Source: Fructilactobacillus cliffordii (GTDB lineage Bacteria; Bacillota; Bacilli; Lactobacillales; Lactobacillaceae). From it: a stretch of 64,000 nucleotides of DNA. The first letter of the stretch is position 1. Each line of letters begins with the position of its first letter. The stretch covers positions 992,001-1,056,000 of the forward strand of contig NZ_CP097117.1 in NCBI RefSeq assembly GCF_024029355.1, read 5' to 3'. The notes beneath the pieces were generated by a model, which did no database searches, was not told the origin of the DNA, and worked only from the letters and a program-made list of their open reading frames with translations. The position numbers and the translations under genes are program-made. Positions 29,187 to 38,093 of the stretch are shown one piece after another.

Positions 29187-31583
29187 ATGTCAGTAGATTA
29201 TGATTCAAAAGAATACCTTGACAGAATGAAGCAATACTGGAACACTGCCAACTACTTATCAGTTGGTCAATTGTTCTTACGTGCCAATCCTTTACTTAAG
29301 GAACCCTTAACTGCAGATGACGTTAAGGTTAAACCAATTGGACATTGGGGTACGATTTCATCACAAAACTTTATTTACACCCATTTAAACCGTGTAATTA
29401 ACAAGTACGACCTCAACATGTTCTACATTGAAGGTTCTGGTCACGGTGGCCAAGTAATGGTTTCTAACTCATACATTGATGGAAGCTATTCTGACATTTA
29501 TCCAGAAATCACCCAAGACGAAAAGGGTATGGCTAAGTTGTTCAAACAATTCTCCTTCCCAGGTGGAATTGCTTCTCACGCTGCCCCAGAAACACCAGGT
29601 TCAATCCACGAAGGTGGAGAATTAGGTTACTCACTTTCTCACGGGGTTGGTGCCATCTTGGATAACCCAGATGTAATCGCTGCCGTTGAAATCGGTGATG
29701 GTGAATCTGAAACTGGTCCTTTAGCTGGTTCATGGTTCTCAAGCAACTTCATTAACCCAGTTACTGATGGTGCTGCACTTCCAATTATCAACTTGAACGG
29801 TTTCAAGATTGCTAACCCAACGATCTTTAACCGGACTTCTGACGAAGACTTACAAAAATACTTTGAAGGTTTAGGTTGGAAGCCATACTTCGTTGAAACG
29901 AACGAACCTCACGGAACTGACGTTGACGAAGTTAACGAAAAATTAGCTAAAGCAATGGATGCTGCCATCGAAGACATTCAGGCCATTCAAAAGAACGCTC
30001 GTGAAAACGAAACTGCTGAAACAGCAACTCGTCCACAATGGCCAATGATTATCTTCCGTTCCCCTAAGGGTTGGACTGGTCCAAAGGAAAACCCAGAAGG
30101 CTTACCAATCGAGGGTTCCTTCCGTGCTCACCAAGTTCCATTGTCATTAAGCTCTGACAACATGGAAACTGCTGACGAATTTGTTAAATGGATGGAAAGC
30201 TACAAGCCAGAAGAATCATTTAACGAAGACGGTTCTATCAAGGAAGAATTGGTAGAATTAGCACCTAAGGGCGACAAGCGTATGTCAGTTAACCCAATTA
30301 CTAACGGTGGAATTGACCCGCAACCATTAGACTTGCCTGATTACAAAAACTACGCTGTTGACGTTCAAACTCCAGGTGCTACTGAAGCAATGGACATGGT
30401 CGTTTGGTCTGACTGGGTTCGTGACACAATGAAGAAGAACCCGAACAACTTCCGGGCCTTTGGACCTGATGAAGCTTGGTCAAACCGGCTTTGGGGTGTC
30501 TTTGAAACCACTAACCGTCAATGGGAACGTCAAATTGACGAACCATACGACGAACACATGGCTCACTATGGTCGGATTATTGATTCTCAATTATCCGAAC
30601 ACGATGACGAAGGTTGGTTAGAAGGTTACGTCTTAACTGGTCGTCACGGTTTCTTTGCAACTTACGAAGCCTTTGGACGAGTAGTAGACTCTATGCTGAC
30701 CCAACACTTCAAGTGGTTACGGAAAGCTTCAGAAATGAAGTGGAGAAAACAATACCCATCATTGAACTTCATTGATTCGTCAACTGTTTTCCAACAAGAC
30801 CACAATGGTTACACTCACCAAGATCCAGGTATGATTACCCACTTGGCTGAAAAGAAACCAGCTTTCATCCGGGAATACTTCCCAGCTGATGCTAATACGT
30901 TATTAGCTACTGCTGATGTTGCTTTCTCAGATTACGAAAAGATCAACTTGATCACCACTTCAAAACACCCACGTCCACAATGGTTTAACATTGACGAAGC
31001 TACTGATTTAGTTCACAACGGACTTGGTAAGGTAGAATGGGCTTCAACTGACAACGGTGAAAAGCCTGACATCGTCATTGCTTCTGCCGGAGTTGAACCA
31101 ACGCTGGAAGCATTAGCTGCTATTTCAATCTTGCACAAGAGCTTCCCAGACTTGAAGATTCGGTTTATCAACGTGGTTGACTTACTGAAGTTGCGGAGTC
31201 CTAAGTTTGACCCTCGTGGCTTGAGTGATGCTGAATTTAACAGCTACTTCACCACTGATACTCCAGTTCTGTTTGCCTTCCACGGTTTTGAAGACATTAT
31301 CAGAACGATCTTCTTTGACCGTGACAACCACAACGTTGACGTGCACGGTTACCGTGAAAATGGTGATATCACTACTCCATTCGACATGCGGGTCTTGAAC
31401 CAATTAGACCGGTTCGACCTTGCTAAAGATGTTGTGGAAAATGTGCCTGGCTTAGCTGAAAAGCACCCAGAATTCATCCAAAAGATGAATGCAATGGTAG
31501 ACAAGCACAACCGTTACATCCGCGAAGTTGGTACTGATTTACCAGAAGTAACGAACTGGAAATGGGAACCATTAAACAAATAA
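29187..31583 (+). CDS. xpkA: Xylulose-5-phosphate/fructose-6-phosphate phosphoketolase
   Basis: Key enzyme of heterolactic fermentation: splits xylulose 5-phosphate with phosphate into acetyl phosphate and glyceraldehyde 3-phosphate, using thiamine diphosphate. 798 residues, the usual length. Visible motifs are [54 protein letters not shown] (about 130-160), the ThDP site [16 protein letters not shown], and [11 protein letters not shown] (about 530). AAAAGGAG precedes the ATG. Codon choice is strongly biased, as expected for an abundant protein. This gene is the main evidence for heterofermentative metabolism. Confidence 0.97.
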
Positions 31584-31601
31584 GCTTGTAACGAGCTGAT
31601 G

Positions 31602-31630
31602 AAAAAGACTCGCATTGCGGGTCTTTTTTA
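31602..31630 (+). terminator. Intrinsic terminator after phosphoketolase
   Basis: AAAAGACTCGC pairs with GCGGGTCTTTT, followed by more Ts. Confidence 0.85.
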
Positions 31631-31700
31631 TTATGCGTTTAATTACGAATGATGGTTCTGATTTTGAAGCTTTGAAGTAGAAAAAAATTGATACATGGGT

Positions 31701-31729
31701 TTGACAGCCATGGATTTTCGTGTTTAAAT
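31701..31729 (+). promoter_or_regulatory. Promoter of the aromatic amino acid operon
   Basis: Perfect TTGACA at 31701-31706, 17 bases, then TTAAAT at 31724-31729. The layout and the sequence GGTTTGACA...TTAAATAA match the promoter of the second attenuator at 50394. Confidence 0.75.
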
Positions 31730-31763
31730 AAAAACATCATCTTTTCAGAAAGGAATTAAACTC

Positions 31764-31832
31764 ATGCCAACTCGGAAGGTAACGATGACGACCATGTGGG
31801 TCAACTTTTATAACTTCGCTTATTTTCAGTAG
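31764..31832 (+). CDS. Leader peptide of the aromatic amino acid operon
   Basis: A 22-residue peptide whose end reads MWVNFYNFAYFQ, that is Trp12, Phe15, Tyr16, Phe18, Tyr20 and Phe21. AAGGAA lies about 10 bases upstream of ATG 31764. Six of the last eleven codons are aromatic, matching the products of the downstream aro/tyrA genes. It is followed without a gap by a chain of alternative RNA stems, so its role is almost certainly to sense charged aromatic tRNAs by ribosome stalling. The peptide itself need have no function. Confidence 0.8.
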   Translation: MPTRKVTMTTMWVNFYNFAYFQ

Positions 31833-32029
31833 CCGTTCGCAGGAATTTAGATGCGAACGGGACCGTTCGTATCTAAGCGGAGTAGGTTTAAGTTACTCAG
31901 TTAGATGCGCTAACCATAGTTAATCTAACTGGGACTCATCGTTAATTGCCACGGGAAGCATCTTTAATTCCACAAATGCAATTTTAAAACCAGTCAGACT
32001 AGCTTCAGGTTAGCCGGGCTGGTTTTTTT
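31833..32029 (+). promoter_or_regulatory. Transcription attenuator with antiterminator and intrinsic terminator
   Basis: Six segments can pair in competing ways. S1 CCGTTCGCA (31833-31841) pairs S2 TGCGAACGG (31852-31860). S2 TTAGATGCGAACGG (31847-31860) pairs S3 CCGTTCGTATCTAA (31863-31876). S3 pairs S4 TTAGATGCG (31901-31909). S4 CAGTTAGAT (31898-31906) pairs S5 ATCTAACTG (31923-31931). S5 TCTAACTGG pairs the terminator arm CCAGTCAGA (31990-31998; 8 of 9). The terminator is AAAACCAG...CTGGTTTT (31986-32026) with Ts. A ribosome at the stop codon covers S1, giving S2:S3, S4:S5 and termination; stalling at aromatic codons leaves S1:S2, S3:S4, S5:terminator arm and readthrough. Confidence 0.78.
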
Positions 32030-32051
32030 GTTGTTTAAGAAGGGAGTAGTT

Positions 32052-33224
32052 ATGGAAATTCATAAACGGCGGTTAAGCTGGAGCTTATACTTCAATTATT
32101 TCATTCATGGGTTTGCACTGATTATTTTAGCCCAAAATATGACCAGTTTAGCGACTAGCTGGCAGACCACGATTGCGGTGGTCTCCTACGTTATGTCGGG
32201 AGTTGGGATTGGGCGGTTAATCGCTTATCCGTTGACCGGTTTGCTCGCTGACCGACTGAGTCGCAAGCTCTTTGTTTATCTTGGGATGGTCGGGTACCTG
32301 ATTTTTGCCCTCGGCATGGTCTTAACGCCTAATTTAGTGATTGCGTACGGACTAGCTATTATTGCCGGGATGTCCAATTCAGCTTTAGATACGGGAACAT
32401 ACACCACGTTGGTGGAGTTAAACGATGGTAACGGAGCCGGAACGGTTTTAATCAAGGCGTTTATGTCAGCCGGAGAATTCATCCTACCGTTAATTGTGGT
32501 TGCCTTACACGATCATCGCTGGTGGTATGGTTGGGCCTTTGTTCTAATGGCACTTTTGTTAGTTGTTAACCTAGTTAATTTAATTCCGTTGCATTTCCCC
32601 AAGGTCCAATCAGGTGTTACTACGGAAGCTACGAGCGTCCAACCAGTATTGACCCGCAACCGGCGGGGGATAGTGACAGCGCTCCTCCTAGTCTACGGGT
32701 TTACCTCCATGGCGGTGATGATCTGTTTCACGCAGTGGATTACCCTTTTTGCCCAGCAAAGTCTGCACTTTTCCACCGGATTGGCCCACTTATTACTGTC
32801 GCTATACAGCATCGGTTCAATCAGCGGGGTATTGGTGTTGTACTGGCTGTTAAAACGCCAAGTAGCAGAAAAATTACTGTTAGTCCTTCTTAATGGAGGA
32901 GCTTTGGTTTCATTGCTGATGGTTAGTTGGGGTCAACTGCCGTTGGTCGTGGCAATTGGCGGTATTCTCTTTGGCTTTTGTGCCGCAGGTGGAGTAATGC
33001 AAACTGGTCTGACGCTCTTCATGAAACTATATCCGCGCCATCGTGGGTTGGTAACCGGATTGTTCTACTTTTTCGGGAGTTTAGCGTCATTGTTAGTCCC
33101 ACTATTGAGTGGCTGGCTCTCCCGAACCAGCATTCGGAGTGCTTTTAGTGCTGATGTGCTGGTGGCAGCCTTGGGAGTAGGCTTAACGCTTGTTACGTTT
33201 TTATTATTACGCAAGGAGGATTAA
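32052..33224 (+). CDS. MFS transporter in the aromatic amino acid operon
   Basis: A 390-residue major facilitator with 12 predicted spans; the MFS loop motif appears as GLLADRLSRKLFVYLG (about residue 62). ATG 32052 has AAGAAGGGAG upstream; the longer frame from TTG 32028 would start inside the attenuator terminator. It is the first gene behind the aromatic leader and lies two bases before the chorismate mutase gene, so it may move shikimate, quinate, an aromatic amino acid or a related compound. The substrate is not visible. Confidence 0.8.
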   Translation: MEIHKRRLSWSLYFNYFIHGFALIILAQNMTSLATSWQTTIAVVSYVMSGVGIGRLIAYPLTGLLADRLSRKLFVYLGMVGYLIFALGMVLTPNLVIAYGLAIIAGMSNSALDTGTYTTLVELNDGNGAGTVLIKAFMSAGEFILPLIVVALHDHRWWYGWAFVLMALLLVVNLVNLIPLHFPKVQSGVTTEATSVQPVLTRNRRGIVTALLLVYGFTSMAVMICFTQWITLFAQQSLHFSTGLAHLLLSLYSIGSISGVLVLYWLLKRQVAEKLLLVLLNGGALVSLLMVSWGQLPLVVAIGGILFGFCAAGGVMQTGLTLFMKLYPRHRGLVTGLFYFFGSLASLLVPLLSGWLSRTSIRSAFSADVLVAALGVGLTLVTFLLLRKED

Positions 33225-33226
33225 CC

Positions 33227-33508
33227 ATGGAACCATTAGAACAACAACGACATCGGATTAACCAGATGGACGAGCAACTGATTTCGTTGCTGGAAGAACG
33301 ATTAACCGTTGCCACTGAAATTGCGACCGCTAAAGCACGGCAGCACCAACCGATTTATGATTCACGGCGCGAAGCAGTGGTCTATGAACACATTCAGAAA
33401 CAGGCGGAGCAGCAACAATTAGTTCCGTATTTAACTGAGATTTATGCCGCCATCATGCAAGCCACCAAAAAATTAGAAGAAGACGAACAGGAGGATCAAC
33501 ATGCTTAA
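33227..33508 (+). CDS. Chorismate mutase, AroQ class
   Basis: All-helical chorismate mutase of 93 residues that turns chorismate into prephenate. The AroQ signature is visible: RHRINQMDEQLISLLEERL at the N-terminus, with the Arg, Asp and Glu positions, and DSRREAVVYEHI (about 43-55). AAGGAGG precedes ATG 33227. It overlaps aroC by 8 bases. Confidence 0.9.
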   Translation: MEPLEQQRHRINQMDEQLISLLEERLTVATEIATAKARQHQPIYDSRREAVVYEHIQKQAEQQQLVPYLTEIYAAIMQATKKLEEDEQEDQHA

Positions 33509-34670
33509 TTACGTTACTGCCGGAGAATCACACGGTCCCCAATTAACCGGGATCATTACGGGAGTTCCCGCCGGACTGAAATTGGATTTGGATGAAATTA
33601 ACGCCGCGTTAGCAGCCCGCCAAGGGGGTTACGGCCGGGGAAATCGACAAAAAATTGAGCACGATCAGGTTCAAATCGTGGGTGGGGTTCGGCATCTGAT
33701 TACCCTCGGGAGTCCAGTGGCACTGGTAATCCAAAATCGCGATCACGCTCATTGGAGTCAGATTATGGATCCGACCGCTCCAGAAACGTCGCAGAACACG
33801 CTGCGGAAGGTAGAACGGCCGCGACCCGGTCACGCGGATTTGGTAGGCGGAATGAAGTACCGGCACCGCGACCTGCGGAACGTGTTGGAACGGTCGTCGG
33901 CGCGGGAAACCGCGATGCGAGTGGCCATTGGGAACATCTGTAAGCAACTGCTCCGGCAGTTAGACATCGATCTGGTGGGCTTTGTAACACAGGTGGGTTC
34001 CATCGGTGGCGAGCAAGTTCCGACTCACGATGTGGCGCGGGTGACCGCTGCAATTCAACAAAACGACCTCCGGATGGTCGATCAGGAGGAGGTCACTGCG
34101 GTGCACGATTTGATTGACCAAACGAAACGTGATGGCGATACCGTCGGCGGCATCATTCGGGTGATTGCTGAAAACGTACCCGCCGGATTAGGGAGTTACG
34201 TCAACTGGGATACCAAGTTAGACGCGAAACTCGCTGCAGCCGTGATGGGTGTCAACGCGATGAAGGGCGTTAGCATCGGGGATGGTTTTACGGCCGCCCA
34301 AAGTTTCGGAAGCCAGGTCATGGATCCGATTAACTGGGACGAAACGGAGCACTGGTCGCGTGCAAGTGACCATCTCGGGGGCTTTGAAGGTGGGATGACA
34401 AACGGAATGCCGATCATCGTGAATGCCGCAATGAAGCCAATTCCGACTCTGTATAAACCGTTACAGACCGCGGATGTGAACACCAAGGAAGCCAAGAAAG
34501 CGAACGTGGAACGCTCGGATACGACTGCGATTGTGCCAGCTTCCCTAGTAATCGAAAGCGTGGTAGAGATTGAACTGGCCAAGGTCCTGACGGAGACCTT
34601 TGATGGCAGCACTTTAGGCCGGTTACAGGAACAAGTGGCGGCTTACCGCCAGGAATTAGCGGATTATTAA
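33501..34670 (+). CDS. aroC: Chorismate synthase
   Basis: Last shared step to chorismate: removes phosphate from EPSP with reduced FMN. 389 residues. Family motifs: GESHGPQLTGIITGVPAGL (about 8-26), RQGGYGRGNRQKIE (about 40-52), RPRPGHADLVGGMKYRHRDLRNVLERSSARETA (about 109-140) and EGGMTNGMPI (about 297). GGAGG lies just before ATG 33501. It starts inside the end of the chorismate mutase gene and ends one base before the next gene. Confidence 0.96.
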   Translation: MLNYVTAGESHGPQLTGIITGVPAGLKLDLDEINAALAARQGGYGRGNRQKIEHDQVQIVGGVRHLITLGSPVALVIQNRDHAHWSQIMDPTAPETSQNTLRKVERPRPGHADLVGGMKYRHRDLRNVLERSSARETAMRVAIGNICKQLLRQLDIDLVGFVTQVGSIGGEQVPTHDVARVTAAIQQNDLRMVDQEEVTAVHDLIDQTKRDGDTVGGIIRVIAENVPAGLGSYVNWDTKLDAKLAAAVMGVNAMKGVSIGDGFTAAQSFGSQVMDPINWDETEHWSRASDHLGGFEGGMTNGMPIIVNAAMKPIPTLYKPLQTADVNTKEAKKANVERSDTTAIVPASLVIESVVEIELAKVLTETFDGSTLGRLQEQVAAYRQELADY

Positions 34671-34671
34671 G

Positions 34672-35196
34672 ATGACGCGGGTGCATACGTTAGGACCACA
34701 AACCACTGATTGTTATCGCGCTGCGCAGGCTTATGTCGAACGCCATCCGGAGCATGAATATCAAATCATGCTGCATTCTAGTTTTGCCGCGGCCATTGCC
34801 GCTGTTACGAAGTACCCCGGGGAACAAATTTTACTACCGACGGCGCTGCAACTAGCGGATGGAACCGACTGGGGTGCTTTACACTATCGTTATCTGGAAC
34901 GGTGGCAGTTGGTTGATGTTTTTTCCCATCCGCTCGATCCGTTGGTTTTGGTCCAGAGTCAGCGCCAGACGGGGTTCATCGATTTACATCCCGCGACGGC
35001 AGAATTAGCCCGGCGGTTGGTTGACGACCAACATGAACGGCGCTTTGCTGCGAGCAAGTGGGCTGCCTACCAAGCCTATCGGAACGATGGGGAATTTTGC
35101 ATTACCAATCAAGCTAATTTAGACCCGCAAGAACGAATCTTAAACCGGTGGGACGTCGACATGGTCTGGACGGTTTACCAAGAACAGGAGGAGTAA
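34672..35196 (+). CDS. Short prephenate dehydratase-like protein, function uncertain
   Basis: A 174-residue protein whose N-terminus VHTLGPQTTDCYRAAQAY recalls the start of prephenate dehydratase (LGPxGT), and whose middle (SSFAAAIAAVTKYPGEQILLPTAL) fits the segment before the substrate PxEN motif. It is much shorter than PheA (about 270-280 residues), lacks the TRF catalytic motif and has no ACT domain. Its place between aroC and aroA, with one-base and two-base gaps, shows it is part of the operon. It may be a binding-fold relative, such as the prephenate decarboxylase (BacA-like) group, a regulator, or a decayed PheA. I would not assign an activity. Confidence 0.55.
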   Translation: MTRVHTLGPQTTDCYRAAQAYVERHPEHEYQIMLHSSFAAAIAAVTKYPGEQILLPTALQLADGTDWGALHYRYLERWQLVDVFSHPLDPLVLVQSQRQTGFIDLHPATAELARRLVDDQHERRFAASKWAAYQAYRNDGEFCITNQANLDPQERILNRWDVDMVWTVYQEQEE

Positions 35197-35198
35197 AG

Positions 35199-36497
35199 AT
35201 GCGCAAGTTAGAGCAAGCCCCCCACGGACTGCACGGAGAGCTCGCGGTGCCCGGGGACAAGAGTATTTCTCACCGAGCCCTGATGCTGGGCGCGGTGGCC
35301 ACGGGAACCACGACTATCGAACATTGGTTAACCGGAGAAGATTGTCAGCACACGTTACAAGCATTGCGGGACGTCGGTGTTCCGATTGAACGGAAAGGAA
35401 CTATGGTGACCGTGCACGGTAAGGGAAGCGCTGGCAACTTCGTGGCTCCCGCAACGTCGTTAGCAATGGGGAATTCTGGAACCACGACGCGCTTATTGAT
35501 GGGACTTTTGAGCGGGACGTCATTTACCAGCAAACTGGTGGGGGATGATTCTCTAGAACGTCGGCCGATGCAGCGGGTTACGCAGCCGTTGGCAGAACTG
35601 GGCGTTAGAATTGACCTCACTGCAGCTGGAACGCTGCCAGCCCAAGTCCACGGTGGTCCGGTTCATGGTGGCACGGTGCGGTTGAACGTCGCCAGCGCGC
35701 AGGTGAAGAGTGCGGTGCTCCTAGCGGGTCTCAACGCGCCGACGCCCACGGTGGTAGTAGAAAAACTGCCCACCCGGGATCATACGGAAATCATGCTGCG
35801 CCAGTTTGGAGCGGATATCACAACGTCCGCGGATCAACGCACCATTACGCTGCAACCGCAGCCACACTTAACCGGGCAGACCGTGGTGGTGCCCGGGGAC
35901 CTCTCCTCAGCCGCCTTCTTTTTGGTGGCGGCCACCATTGTCCCACAGTCCGAAGTGAAACTGACGAACGTTAACTTAAACCCAACCCGGACCGGCATTC
36001 TACGGGTCTTAGACCAGATGGGAGCGGATGTTACCATCGAACCGATTCCAACCACTGGAGAACCCCGGGGTAATTTGCTGGTTCGTAGCAGTCAGTTACA
36101 ACCAATTCACCTGACGGCTTCTGACATTCCGGCGGTAATTGACGAGCTTCCGCTGGTGGCACTCTTAGCCGCTACGGCAGACGGGACCAGTACAATTCGC
36201 GGCGCTGTCGAGTTACGGGTTAAAGAAACCGATCGAATTTCGGTGCTGAAAACGGAACTAGAGAAACTGGGGGTCGCGGTGACCGAGTATCCCGACGGAT
36301 TGGCGATTACCGGGCGTCCGGCGTGGGATGTCCAGGATTCAAAACTGGATAGCCATGGGGACCACCGAATTGGCATGATGCTTTCAATCGCAGCGTTACG
36401 GAGTCACACGCCGTTGATTCTGCAAAATGAGGAGGCCGTAGCGGTTTCCTATCCCCAATTTTTCACTGATTTAGAGCAACTACGGGAGGATCATTAA
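35199..36497 (+). CDS. aroA: 5-enolpyruvylshikimate-3-phosphate synthase
   Basis: Sixth step of the shikimate pathway, 432 residues from ATG 35199. GGAGGAG lies 5 bases upstream of this ATG, while the longer frame from 35148 runs inside the preceding gene. Motifs: VPGDKSISHRALMLGA (about 18), GNSGTTTRLLMGLL (about 90), the ERRPMQR segment, and RVKETDRI (about 340). Glu and Lys active-site residues are present. It ends sharing one base with tyrA. Confidence 0.95.
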   Translation: MRKLEQAPHGLHGELAVPGDKSISHRALMLGAVATGTTTIEHWLTGEDCQHTLQALRDVGVPIERKGTMVTVHGKGSAGNFVAPATSLAMGNSGTTTRLLMGLLSGTSFTSKLVGDDSLERRPMQRVTQPLAELGVRIDLTAAGTLPAQVHGGPVHGGTVRLNVASAQVKSAVLLAGLNAPTPTVVVEKLPTRDHTEIMLRQFGADITTSADQRTITLQPQPHLTGQTVVVPGDLSSAAFFLVAATIVPQSEVKLTNVNLNPTRTGILRVLDQMGADVTIEPIPTTGEPRGNLLVRSSQLQPIHLTASDIPAVIDELPLVALLAATADGTSTIRGAVELRVKETDRISVLKTELEKLGVAVTEYPDGLAITGRPAWDVQDSKLDSHGDHRIGMMLSIAALRSHTPLILQNEEAVAVSYPQFFTDLEQLREDH

Positions 36498-37591
36498 TGA
36501 CAACGGTTTTCATTCACGGATTTGGTTTGTTAGGAAGTTCGCTGGCGCGGGTGCTCCGGCAGGAAGCTGAACCGGTAACCATCATCGGGAGTGACCATAA
36601 TCCTGCGCAAATTGAATATGCAAGGGAACACCAGTTGCTAGATCAAACGAGCACCGGCTTAGAGCGGGCGCCTGAAGCAGATGTGATTATTTTAGCGACC
36701 CCAGTGGATCAAATTAAGCAAACGTTGCGTGCGTTGGCAAAGTTGCCACTTCAACCGGGTGTGATTGTTACCGACGTGGGCAGCACAAAACAAAGCGTGG
36801 TGAAAGCGAGTCAAGCATTAGCGGCCACCCCCGCGGTCTTTGTTGGTGGTCATCCGATGGCCGGATCTCACAAAACGGGAGCACGCGCTGGGCGCGCCGA
36901 TTTATTTGAAAATGCCTTCTACTTTCAAACTCCGCAAAGTAGTGCCGAACGAGCCGCAGCGCAGCAACTACAACACTTGCTTGCTGGAACGAAAGTCAAA
37001 TTTGTCCAGATTACGCCCGAACGCCACGATCGGTTGGTGGGGCAGGTTAGCCATTTACCGCACGTGTTGGCGGCTGGACTGGTTAATCAGAGTAAGCAGG
37101 CACTGCAATCAGATTCGTTGGGACTGCGCGTGGCAGCCGGTGGTTTTAAATCCATGACCCGGATTGCAGCGGCTGATCCCACGATGTGGCAGTCGATTTT
37201 GCTCAACAATGGTCCGGTGGTAAGCGACCAAGTAGCTGCTTACATTGAAACGTTGCAACGGGTCCAGACTGCCATTAACCAGCAGGATGGTCCGGCTCTC
37301 TGGGAGTACTTTCAAAGCGCCCAACAAAGTCGGCAACAGCTGGAGCAACAGGATGATAACCAGGGTGCGGGCTTTTACGACCTCTTTTTAGACATTCCGG
37401 ACCAACCGGGGACCATTGCGCGGGTGACAACGTTATTAGCCCAGGCTCACCTAAACTTGGTCAACCTGCAGATTTTGGAAGTGCGCGAGGATGTCAACGG
37501 AATCTTACAGCTAACCTTTAGTACGGCGGCAGATGCCCAACGGGCGGAGACGGCGCTCGCGCCCGAGTATCACATTGTGAGGAGGGATTAG
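36497..37591 (+). CDS. tyrA: Prephenate dehydrogenase with ACT domain
   Basis: NAD-dependent conversion of prephenate to 4-hydroxyphenylpyruvate on the tyrosine branch; 364 residues. The N-terminal Rossmann motif GFGLLGSSLA (about 8), the VTDVGSTKQ segment and GGHPMAGSHKTG (about 117) are typical, and the last 75 residues (FLDIPDQPGTIARVTTLLAQ) form an ACT domain for tyrosine feedback. ATG 36497 overlaps the final base of aroA. Confidence 0.93.
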   Translation: MTTVFIHGFGLLGSSLARVLRQEAEPVTIIGSDHNPAQIEYAREHQLLDQTSTGLERAPEADVIILATPVDQIKQTLRALAKLPLQPGVIVTDVGSTKQSVVKASQALAATPAVFVGGHPMAGSHKTGARAGRADLFENAFYFQTPQSSAERAAAQQLQHLLAGTKVKFVQITPERHDRLVGQVSHLPHVLAAGLVNQSKQALQSDSLGLRVAAGGFKSMTRIAAADPTMWQSILLNNGPVVSDQVAAYIETLQRVQTAINQQDGPALWEYFQSAQQSRQQLEQQDDNQGAGFYDLFLDIPDQPGTIARVTTLLAQAHLNLVNLQILEVREDVNGILQLTFSTAADAQRAETALAPEYHIVRRD

Positions 37592-37592
37592 G

Positions 37593-38093
37593 ATGGATTT
37601 AATTTTGATTGGATTCATGGGTAGTGGCAAAACCACGATTAGCCAGTTACTTGGCGAACGGCTAGGAGTGCCCGTGACCGATTTAGACCAGGTGATTGTA
37701 GAAACCGCCGAACGATCCATCGCAGCCATTTTTGCTGAACAGGGCGAAGTAGGGTTTCGCCTGTTAGAAACTCAGGCGCTCGCCACCCAACTGGATCAAC
37801 CGGGGATTTTAGCGACCGGAGGCGGCGTTCCCACGCAGGAACAGAATCGGGAACTTTTACAGTGCCACGCGGCTCCGGTGGTTTTACTAGAGATTGCCCC
37901 CGAAACAGCTTACGAACGGGTGAAAGCGGATGAGCATCGGCCGATTGCGAAAAACCTCGATTTAGCGGAACTAGCGGCGTTGAAAGACTCTCGTCAGGGA
38001 TATTATCAAAGCTGTGCTGATTTAGTTGTGGACGCTAATCAGGATCCGAAGGCGATTGTGAATGAGATCATGAATTATTATCAGTTAAACTAA
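37593..38093 (+). CDS. aroK: Shikimate kinase
   Basis: ATP-dependent phosphorylation of shikimate, 166 residues. Walker A GFMGSGKTT (about 7), the shikimate-binding DLD (about 31), the VGFRLLE stretch with the conserved Arg, GGG at about 75, and the lid RPIAKNL. GAGGAGGG precedes the ATG. It is last in the operon; aroB, aroD, aroE and DAHP synthase are not in this window. Confidence 0.93.
   Translation: MDLILIGFMGSGKTTISQLLGERLGVPVTDLDQVIVETAERSIAAIFAEQGEVGFRLLETQALATQLDQPGILATGGGVPTQEQNRELLQCHAAPVVLLEIAPETAYERVKADEHRPIAKNLDLAELAALKDSRQGYYQSCADLVVDANQDPKAIVNEIMNYYQLN

Follow-up and report, generated by a model that had tools for sequence, protein, structure and literature searches.

The aromatic leader and its operon

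A stretch of 64,000 nucleotides (nt) from the 1.46 Mb genome of Fructilactobacillus cliffordii (G000), here called the window, was analysed, and all coordinates are positions within it. Between a phosphoketolase gene and an aromatic amino acid (aro/tyrA) operon lies a leader region. It holds a short open reading frame (ORF) with many aromatic codons, followed by a chain of alternative RNA helices. We describe it as a probable leader-peptide attenuator, in which the ribosome would control transcription of the operon. The features of the leader are:

31701..31729, + strand, promoter-like site TTGACA-17-TTAAAT, read directly in the window sequence
31764..31832, + strand, leader peptide ORF of 22 codons plus TAG, MPTRKVTMTTMWVNFYNFAYFQ, from ORF reading, with counterparts in the genus and family
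31797..31826, + strand, control codons W12, F15, Y16, F18, Y20 and F21, from ORF reading and positional enrichment over 65 members
31833..31841, + strand, segment S1, CCGTTCGCA, pairs with S2 and is presumably masked by a ribosome at the stop codon; duplex energy, swap test
31846..31860, + strand, segment S2, pairs with S1 or S3; duplex energy, swap test, pair counts
31863..31877, + strand, segment S3, pairs with S2 or S4 (inner extension GAGTA:TACTC); duplex energy, swap test, pair counts
31894..31909, + strand, segment S4, pairs with S3 or S5; duplex energy, swap test, pair counts
31923..31933, + strand, segment S5, antiterminator strand, pairs with S4 or T5'; duplex energy, swap test, pair counts
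31986..32003, + strand, T5', the terminator 5' arm, pairs with S5 or T3'; duplex energy, swap test
32008..32029, + strand, T3' arm (32008-32026) and T-run to 32029 of the intrinsic terminator; sequence, folding

The leader ORF is preceded by the Shine-Dalgarno sequence AGAAAGGA. An initial annotation, made from the sequence alone, had described a 22-codon ORF with Trp, Phe, Tyr, Phe, Tyr and Phe in its last eleven codons, placed before an aro/tyrA operon. The ORF is present as described, and family matches of the downstream genes confirmed the operon. S1 adjoins the TAG directly, and not after one base as had been stated. The same annotation saw no T-box sequence, and here too the search agreed: the T-box model (RF00230) had no match at the gathering threshold in the window and none up to E 10 in 31600-32200. 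A T-box identity of the leader was thus rejected. Elsewhere in the genome 23 T-box matches were found at E ≤0.001, two of them over the cut-off and none at the leader locus.

The operon genes are:

32052..33224, + strand, MFS transporter, first gene of the operon; PF07690
33227..33508, + strand, chorismate mutase; TIGR01805 above cut-off
33501..34670, + strand, aroC, chorismate synthase; TIGR00033 above cut-off
34672..35196, + strand, divergent prephenate-dehydratase-like (PDT-like) protein, 174 aa
35193..36497, + strand, aroA, EPSP synthase (start codon provisional); TIGR01356 above cut-off
36497..37591, + strand, tyrA, prephenate dehydrogenase; NF005107 above cut-off
37593..38093, + strand, aroK, shikimate kinase; PF01202

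A PDB sequence search with the family of the 174-aa protein gave nothing convincing.

A relay of mutually exclusive helices

The seven segments (S1 to S5, T5' and T3') form six successive, mutually exclusive helices, the last of which is the terminator at 31986-32029. Duplex energies in the window were -14.8 for S1:S2 (9 bp), -21.3 for S2:S3 (14 bp), -15.9 for S3:S4 (15 pairs in three blocks), -14.4 for S4:S5 (11 bp), -9.9 for S5:T5' (8 bp, one mismatch) and -17.3 for T5':T3'. Among 2,000 dinucleotide-preserving shuffles the longest chain had four alternative helices, compared with the six observed. Fold z-scores were -7.7 for 31737-32035 and -5.7 for 31846-32035. The chain from S1:S2 to S5:terminator thus stands as initially annotated, on the evidence of the duplexes and the shuffles. 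The stem length of 8-12 pairs given for it does not, as some stems have 14 and 15 pairs.

Distribution and family membership

Parts of the leader were found by DNA search in 8 of 41 genomes, F. cliffordii included. One of these loci (L008; loci are cited by L numbers) has the same chain but two Cys codons in the leader and a different downstream gene. A covariance model (R1) was built from eight leaders and, at E 0.01, had matches in 100 of 397 Lactobacillaceae genomes. A second model of 64 rows (R2), whose source alignment A3 contains one antisense row (L003), matched 200 of the 397. At E 0.001, R2 also matched 93 of 246 Lactobacillales genomes, of which 79 belong to families other than the Lactobacillaceae. 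Among 47 loci read in other families, three look doubtful (L208, which was counted as aromatic, L209 and L210), and some of the 93 matched genomes may therefore be false. Judging by these matches, the design is not specific to the aro/tyrA operon but runs through the Lactobacillales with other amino acids.

The 100 fetched R1 loci were read individually, and three were rejected: L117, which lies within a tRNA-like stretch, L133, which lies within a coding region, and L138. Together with the eight loci from the DNA search, 108 loci minus these three formed the starting set. Five loci that looked near-identical to others (L041, L060, L063, L125, L129) were left out, leaving 100. From these we dropped the short-chain L107, L110 and L135, the misplaced L086, L101, L102, L122 and L136, and L040, L082, L105 and L121, in which the script found no terminator. 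The remaining 88 were reduced to 65 non-redundant members by removing those more than 90% identical. A leader ORF was picked in 97 of 100 rows, with three wrong picks, and had 18-20 codons in 51 of the 65 members. A promoter-like site (score at least 9/12) lies within 110 nt 5' of the leader start in 62 of the 65, at -59 to -64 in seven listed. A consensus scan of 31000-33000, which demands A at position 2 of the second hexamer, gave no promoter-like site; it missed the leader terminator too, which direct folding shows.

The genome of F. cliffordii has a second relay-type leader (L193, G000:C1:1321170-1321270, minus strand, R2 E 9e-5). Its aromatic stretch SFYFYFTW and short chain precede a gene for a membrane protein, which may be a transporter of an aromatic compound. 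L110 and L135 are similarly arranged, and the gene downstream of L110 has a PF13303 (PTS_EIIC_2) match.

Covariation of the pairings

Aligning the leaders of related species for covariation had been proposed with the initial annotation, and all five relay pairings were borne out. In a swap test, duplexes within a sequence (cognate) were compared with duplexes between sequences (swapped) for the 65 members, with 5,000 permutations; phylogeny was ignored, and is shared by the non-neighbour controls. Mean cognate and swapped energies were -15.4 and -10.6 for S1:S2, -20.9 and -15.0 for S2:S3, -15.3 and -10.4 for S3:S4, -16.1 and -9.8 for S4:S5, and -14.0 and -9.7 for S5:T5'. All five pairings were stronger cognate than swapped (0/5,000 permutations each). 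The non-neighbour controls S1:S4 and S3:T5' showed no cognate preference.

Pair counts in 64 aligned rows pointed the same way. In the termination state, 22 of 28 pairs had changed on both sides, compared with 14.2 in shuffles (0/500). For S3:S4, which is absent from the model, two-sided changes were seen in 57 cells, compared with 24 in shuffles; the covariation was 0.31 against 0.20 (0/500 each). Sliding the partner by 1-3 columns lowered the signal in both counts. S3 columns 55-57 covary with both S2 and S4.

Leader codons and downstream genes

Aromatic codons occupy fixed places in the 65 leaders. Counted from the stop, they were found at -9, -8 and -7 in 49%, 80% and 74% of the leaders, and at -5, -3 and -2 in 63%, 86% and 82%, whereas no position from -20 to -10 exceeded 8%. 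The control codons are concentrated at -9 to -7 and at -5. The leader stop lies 6-22 nt 5' of S2 in all 65 members. A ribosome covers about 11 nt beyond its A site. Stalls at -4 or earlier would therefore free S1, and a ribosome at the stop would cover it. The spacing of codons, stop and S1 claimed for the window leader was thus recovered across the family, with control codons sitting where a stalled ribosome would free S1.

The leader residue tracks the downstream gene in the main classes: Tyr and Phe (with or without Trp) before shared aro genes, Phe before PDT-like genes, Tyr before NhaC-type genes and Ile before ilv genes. In 105 loci, the first gene was of the MFS type in 54, NhaC type in 12, TrpX type in nine, aroE in eight, PDT-like in seven, aroC in four and another in 11. 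The last nine leader residues of these loci (leaders missing for L060, L101, L110, L125 and L129, and wrongly picked for L086, L107 and L135) summed to 174 Tyr, 110 Phe and 11 Trp before MFS genes and 35 Tyr and 14 Phe before aroE. They gave 21 Phe and one Tyr before PDT-like genes, 45 Tyr and two Phe before NhaC-type genes, and 31 Phe and one Trp before TrpX-type genes.

Three leaders have 4-5 Cys each (L039, L043, L137). They precede genes for a solute-binding protein (best NCBIfam match cystine, sub-cut-off), an M20 peptidase and an SDF-family symporter. Of the 47 loci in other families, 38 have at least three aromatic residues among the last 11 leader residues and five have at least three Ile. 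Ile leaders there precede ilvA (L156), ilvE (L172) and a gene for a branched-chain binding protein (L207, below cut-off). The other four include L157, a Leu/Ile/Val leader before acetolactate synthase, and L182, a Trp leader whose downstream gene seems to encode a TrpX-like protein.

Some single cases and recurring features were also recorded. L107 (G005:C3) has four Ser codons in its leader and a shorter chain, and is followed by an APC-type permease gene; it is a possible Ser-sensing member. L049 (G009:C18) has three Ile codons before a PanE-like gene, which carries an in-frame stop in that assembly and is followed by an aminotransferase-like frame (both named by eye). Four TrpX-type proteins were compared with the NCBIfam TrpX cut-off of 390 bits: those after Phe/Tyr leaders fell below it (L061, 349; L153, 319) and those after Trp leaders above it (L083, 468; L216, 625). 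The leader may tell the substrate of a TrpX-type transporter. Leaders end in Arg in 24 of the 65 members and in 23 of the 30 trpB-class loci described below, and the stop is TAG in 53 of 65 and 16 of 30, respectively. Triplets of the leader tail spell TTTAGATAG in 13 of the 65; this sequence resembles part of S2 and S4.

Relation to the trpB motif and sRNA_2410

An Rfam scan of 20 loci linked the family to two known RNAs. RF02863 was matched above its cut-off by L162, an aromatic leader before aroE (66.4 bits vs 61), and below the cut-off at E <0.05 by eight further loci. RF04312, the trpB motif, was matched below its cut-off by L201, L061 and L175 (E 0.0008, 0.03 and 0.23). The window leader itself matched neither model up to E 10.

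RF04312 matches were found in 74 of 128 Lactobacillales genomes, 28 of them over the cut-off, and in two of 169 genomes of the phylum, neither over the cut-off. The best match in each of the best 30 Lactobacillales genomes, of 89 matches listed, was inspected for an upstream ORF (uORF). The best-placed uORF had a Trp codon among its last eight codons at 29 of the 30 loci and two at 18, compared with 6.8% and 0.3% in single-base shuffles of the upstream regions. The two weak loci from the phylum had no Trp uORF. R2 matched 22 of the 30 loci at E ≤0.011, whereas 8 T-box loci and both phylum loci went unmatched. Of the downstream genes, those at L216 and L217 were tested as TrpX and TrpB, and most others look alike; at L213, L215 and L227 there was no trp-type gene in the stretch read.

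In 23 non-redundant RF04312 members, S1:S2, S2:S3 and S4:S5 showed a cognate preference (0/2,000 each). That of S3:S4 was small (-12.0 vs -11.0, 5/2,000), and S1:S4 showed none. Segment boundaries in this set came from folding the individual sequences, an approach that favours S2:S3 and S4:S5, and those of L228, L233 and L238 were badly placed. By our reading the core is the same, with P1 corresponding to S2:S3, P2 to S4:S5 and S3 to the antiterminator. S4:S5 would itself be the terminator, so that the relay is two segments shorter, with three segments and Trp codons, and its logic is kept. On this evidence RF04312 appears to be the Trp branch of the relay family. The motif has more than 900 representatives and was published as a strong candidate for a riboswitch; the available text of that paper names no uORF, although its authors leave a classic attenuator open (PMC11109978).

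The relay family also appears to include RF02863, given the match of L162. This family was founded on the Enterococcus faecium small RNA (sRNA) sRNA_2410, which was detected at 195 nt by RNA-seq and also by quantitative PCR (qPCR) and Northern blot, with two transcripts (PMC5593968). RF02863 is filed as an sRNA, and the portion of that paper at hand mentions neither leader peptide nor attenuation. The two transcripts would fit premature termination in such a leader, though the paper, in that portion, says no such thing.

Proposed mechanism

We consider the window leader, at a probability of roughly 85%, to be a long-relay transcription attenuator of the leader-peptide (ribosome-mediated) kind, in which stalling, timing and regulatory outcome are our inference. 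Anatomy, conservation, covariation of the pairings, codon position and the match of residue and gene in the main classes argue for it. With ample charged aromatic tRNAs, the ribosome would reach the stop at 31830-31832 and cover S1. S2:S3 and S4:S5 would then form, leaving T5' free for the terminator, and transcription would stop at about 32023-32029. A shortage of Trp, Phe or Tyr tRNA would instead stall the ribosome at Trp12 to Phe18 (11 to 5 codons from the end) and leave S1 free. S1:S2, S3:S4 and S5:T5' would then block the terminator, and the aro/tyrA operon would be read. Across the family, the sensed amino acid would be determined by the leader codons, and an odd number of segments (three in the trpB branch, five here) would precede the terminator arm.

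We looked for a leader segment that shields S1, and no clear one was found: leader:S1 energies averaged -5.8, compared with -5.7 for shuffled S1. Cognate pairs (-5.8) differed little from swapped ones (-5.5; 100 of 2,000 permutations reach it), and a weak tendency is possible. Without a clear shield, an untranslated leader should therefore default to readthrough.

Folding with and without S1 masked agreed with the initial annotation at the S4 stage. In the window transcript up to S4, S1:S2 (0.99) and S3:S4 (0.91) prevailed with S1 free, and S2:S3 (0.83) with S1 masked. When T5' emerged, S5:T5' reached 0.35 with S1 free and 0.05 with S1 masked. Across the 65 members at S4 emergence, a free S1 made S3:S4 likelier than a masked one did in 47 and less likely in 13, and S3:S4 was likelier with native than with shuffled S1 in 49 and less likely in eight; masking S1 raised S2:S3 in 52 and lowered it in four. 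The full relay was not reproduced at equilibrium, where the terminator wins.

Several observations weigh against this mechanism. Equilibrium folding of the window transcript with S1 free favoured S2:S3 (0.81) over S1:S2 (0.07) when S3 was just out, and S4:S5 (0.98) over S3:S4 (0.02) when S5 was just out. At full length the terminator won both ways (0.67 with S1 free, 0.85 masked). At T5' emergence, S5:T5' differed by more than 0.05 as expected in only 26 of the 65 members, and in the opposite direction in 11. The modelling thus supports the switch in part. In the covariation data, the S2:S3 and S4:S5 segments of the swap test had been cut with a model of those same helices. Five of nine S3:S4 pairs had two-sided changes, no more than in shuffles (435/500 reach it), and two of the nine were unpaired in 34 and 38 rows. 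Leader and gene had no obvious fit at L043 (M20 peptidase, Cys), L113 (POT transporter, Trp) and L203 (BcaP-like permease, Phe/Tyr).

Since equilibrium favours S2:S3, S4:S5 and the terminator, the readthrough path needs the earlier helices to persist kinetically. We infer that the choice between termination and readthrough is co-transcriptional and kinetic; this is the weakest step of the mechanism.

Alternative explanations

The leader peptide might sense a free amino acid inside the ribosome by nascent-peptide arrest, as TnaC does, instead of the ribosome waiting for a charged tRNA. The similar leader tails and the common Arg end would fit such arrest. However, the residue shifts with the gene (Phe, Tyr, Trp, Cys, Ile), as codon starvation predicts, and the tail triplets also spell the recurrent RNA sequence noted above. 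We regard arrest as improbable.

Even less probable is a metabolite-binding riboswitch with an incidental short ORF, as proposed for RF04312. Conserved hairpins, a terminator and the published listing of the trpB motif speak for it. Against it, the ORF carries matching control codons at fixed positions, and the residue varies with the gene while one model still recognises the RNA core. The authors of the listing, in the text available, themselves allow for an attenuator (PMC11109978).

Attenuation might also be plain and depend on S4, S5 and the terminator alone, with S1 to S3 as a separate hairpin or a processing signal. S2:S3 and S4:S5 are indeed the most stable helices on average, the equilibrium effect of S1 on S5:T5' is modest, and in the window S4:S5 prevails after S5 has emerged. 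Against this reading, S1:S2 and S3:S4 match the other pairings in their cognate preference, and the leader stop is found 6-22 nt 5' of S2 in all 65 members; we consider it very unlikely.

A trans-acting sRNA whose source happens to precede amino acid genes has the slightest chance of the four: RF02863 is annotated in this way and sRNA_2410 was detected by three methods (PMC5593968, in part), but leader codons and downstream gene agree in the main classes, and an attenuator is also expected to yield a short RNA.

Comparison with known attenuators

In the E. coli trp attenuator, which has four segments and Trp codons, the position of the ribosome selects between antiterminator and terminator. 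The ribosome-mediated attenuator proposed here shares this selection and the Trp codons. It differs in that the control codons lie 5' of S1 and a stall would free S1, whereas the trp stall masks a segment. The his attenuator of E. coli and Salmonella has segments A-F, a leader peptide with control codons, alternating hairpins and an antiterminator that blocks the terminator. All of these have counterparts here, but the window relay is longer by two segments ahead of the terminator arm, and nothing in it clearly corresponds to the shielding segment A. In the trp/his type an upstream segment within the leader pairs with the first relay segment, a pairing not clearly seen here. Readthrough of untranslated leader RNA would be the reverse of the trp/his default. 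The ermK-type antibiotic-inducible attenuators likewise pass a multi-segment hairpin relay to terminators under the gate of a stalled ribosome; they sense a drug, and the window relay would sense an amino acid. T-box leaders serve the same kind of genes and also respond to uncharged tRNA, by RNA-tRNA binding, whereas in the window leader the ribosome would sense the tRNA shortage.

Leader-peptide attenuators of his genes have been described in other Firmicutes (PMC2965389, PMC9413887), and a uORF candidate (uORFC-13-1) precedes aroF in Acholeplasma (PMC8632094). They share a uORF with control codons and a terminator, but belong to other lineages and genes, and the available parts of these papers describe no long relay. 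In the open-access literature, outside which most subscription papers lie, we found no description of the present family as leader-peptide attenuators.

Significance

From the sequence data, the window leader likely represents a new long-relay variant of ribosome-mediated attenuation that is common to much of the Lactobacillales, with a predicted regulatory outcome and with the trpB motif as its likely Trp branch. It also seems fairly probable that the Lactobacillales share one homologous, reprogrammable class of ribosome-gated relays over amino acid genes. A leader of about 18-20 codons would set the sensed residue (Tyr, Phe, Trp, Cys, Ile, perhaps Ser). Relay length would step by two (three or five segments) with the logic kept, RF04312 and RF02863 would be branches, and the class would form a second general amino acid control beside T-boxes. 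This offers a mechanism for the orphan riboswitch candidate RF04312, or at any rate for those of its members that occur in the Lactobacillales. It also suggests wide reliance of the T-box-rich Lactobacillales on leader-peptide attenuation. Leader codons hint at the amino acid served by the downstream gene and could help to name transporters and enzymes, such as the divergent prephenate dehydratase, NhaC-type genes with Tyr leaders and TrpX-type proteins. The relay would be a natural RNA strand-displacement cascade. Species differ in the length and the input of this cascade, which makes relay length a parameter open to study.

Upstream hairpin

A terminator-like hairpin, whose weak sub-cut-off match to Thr_leader we judged to be due to chance, lies directly 3' of the phosphoketolase gene at 31604-31631.
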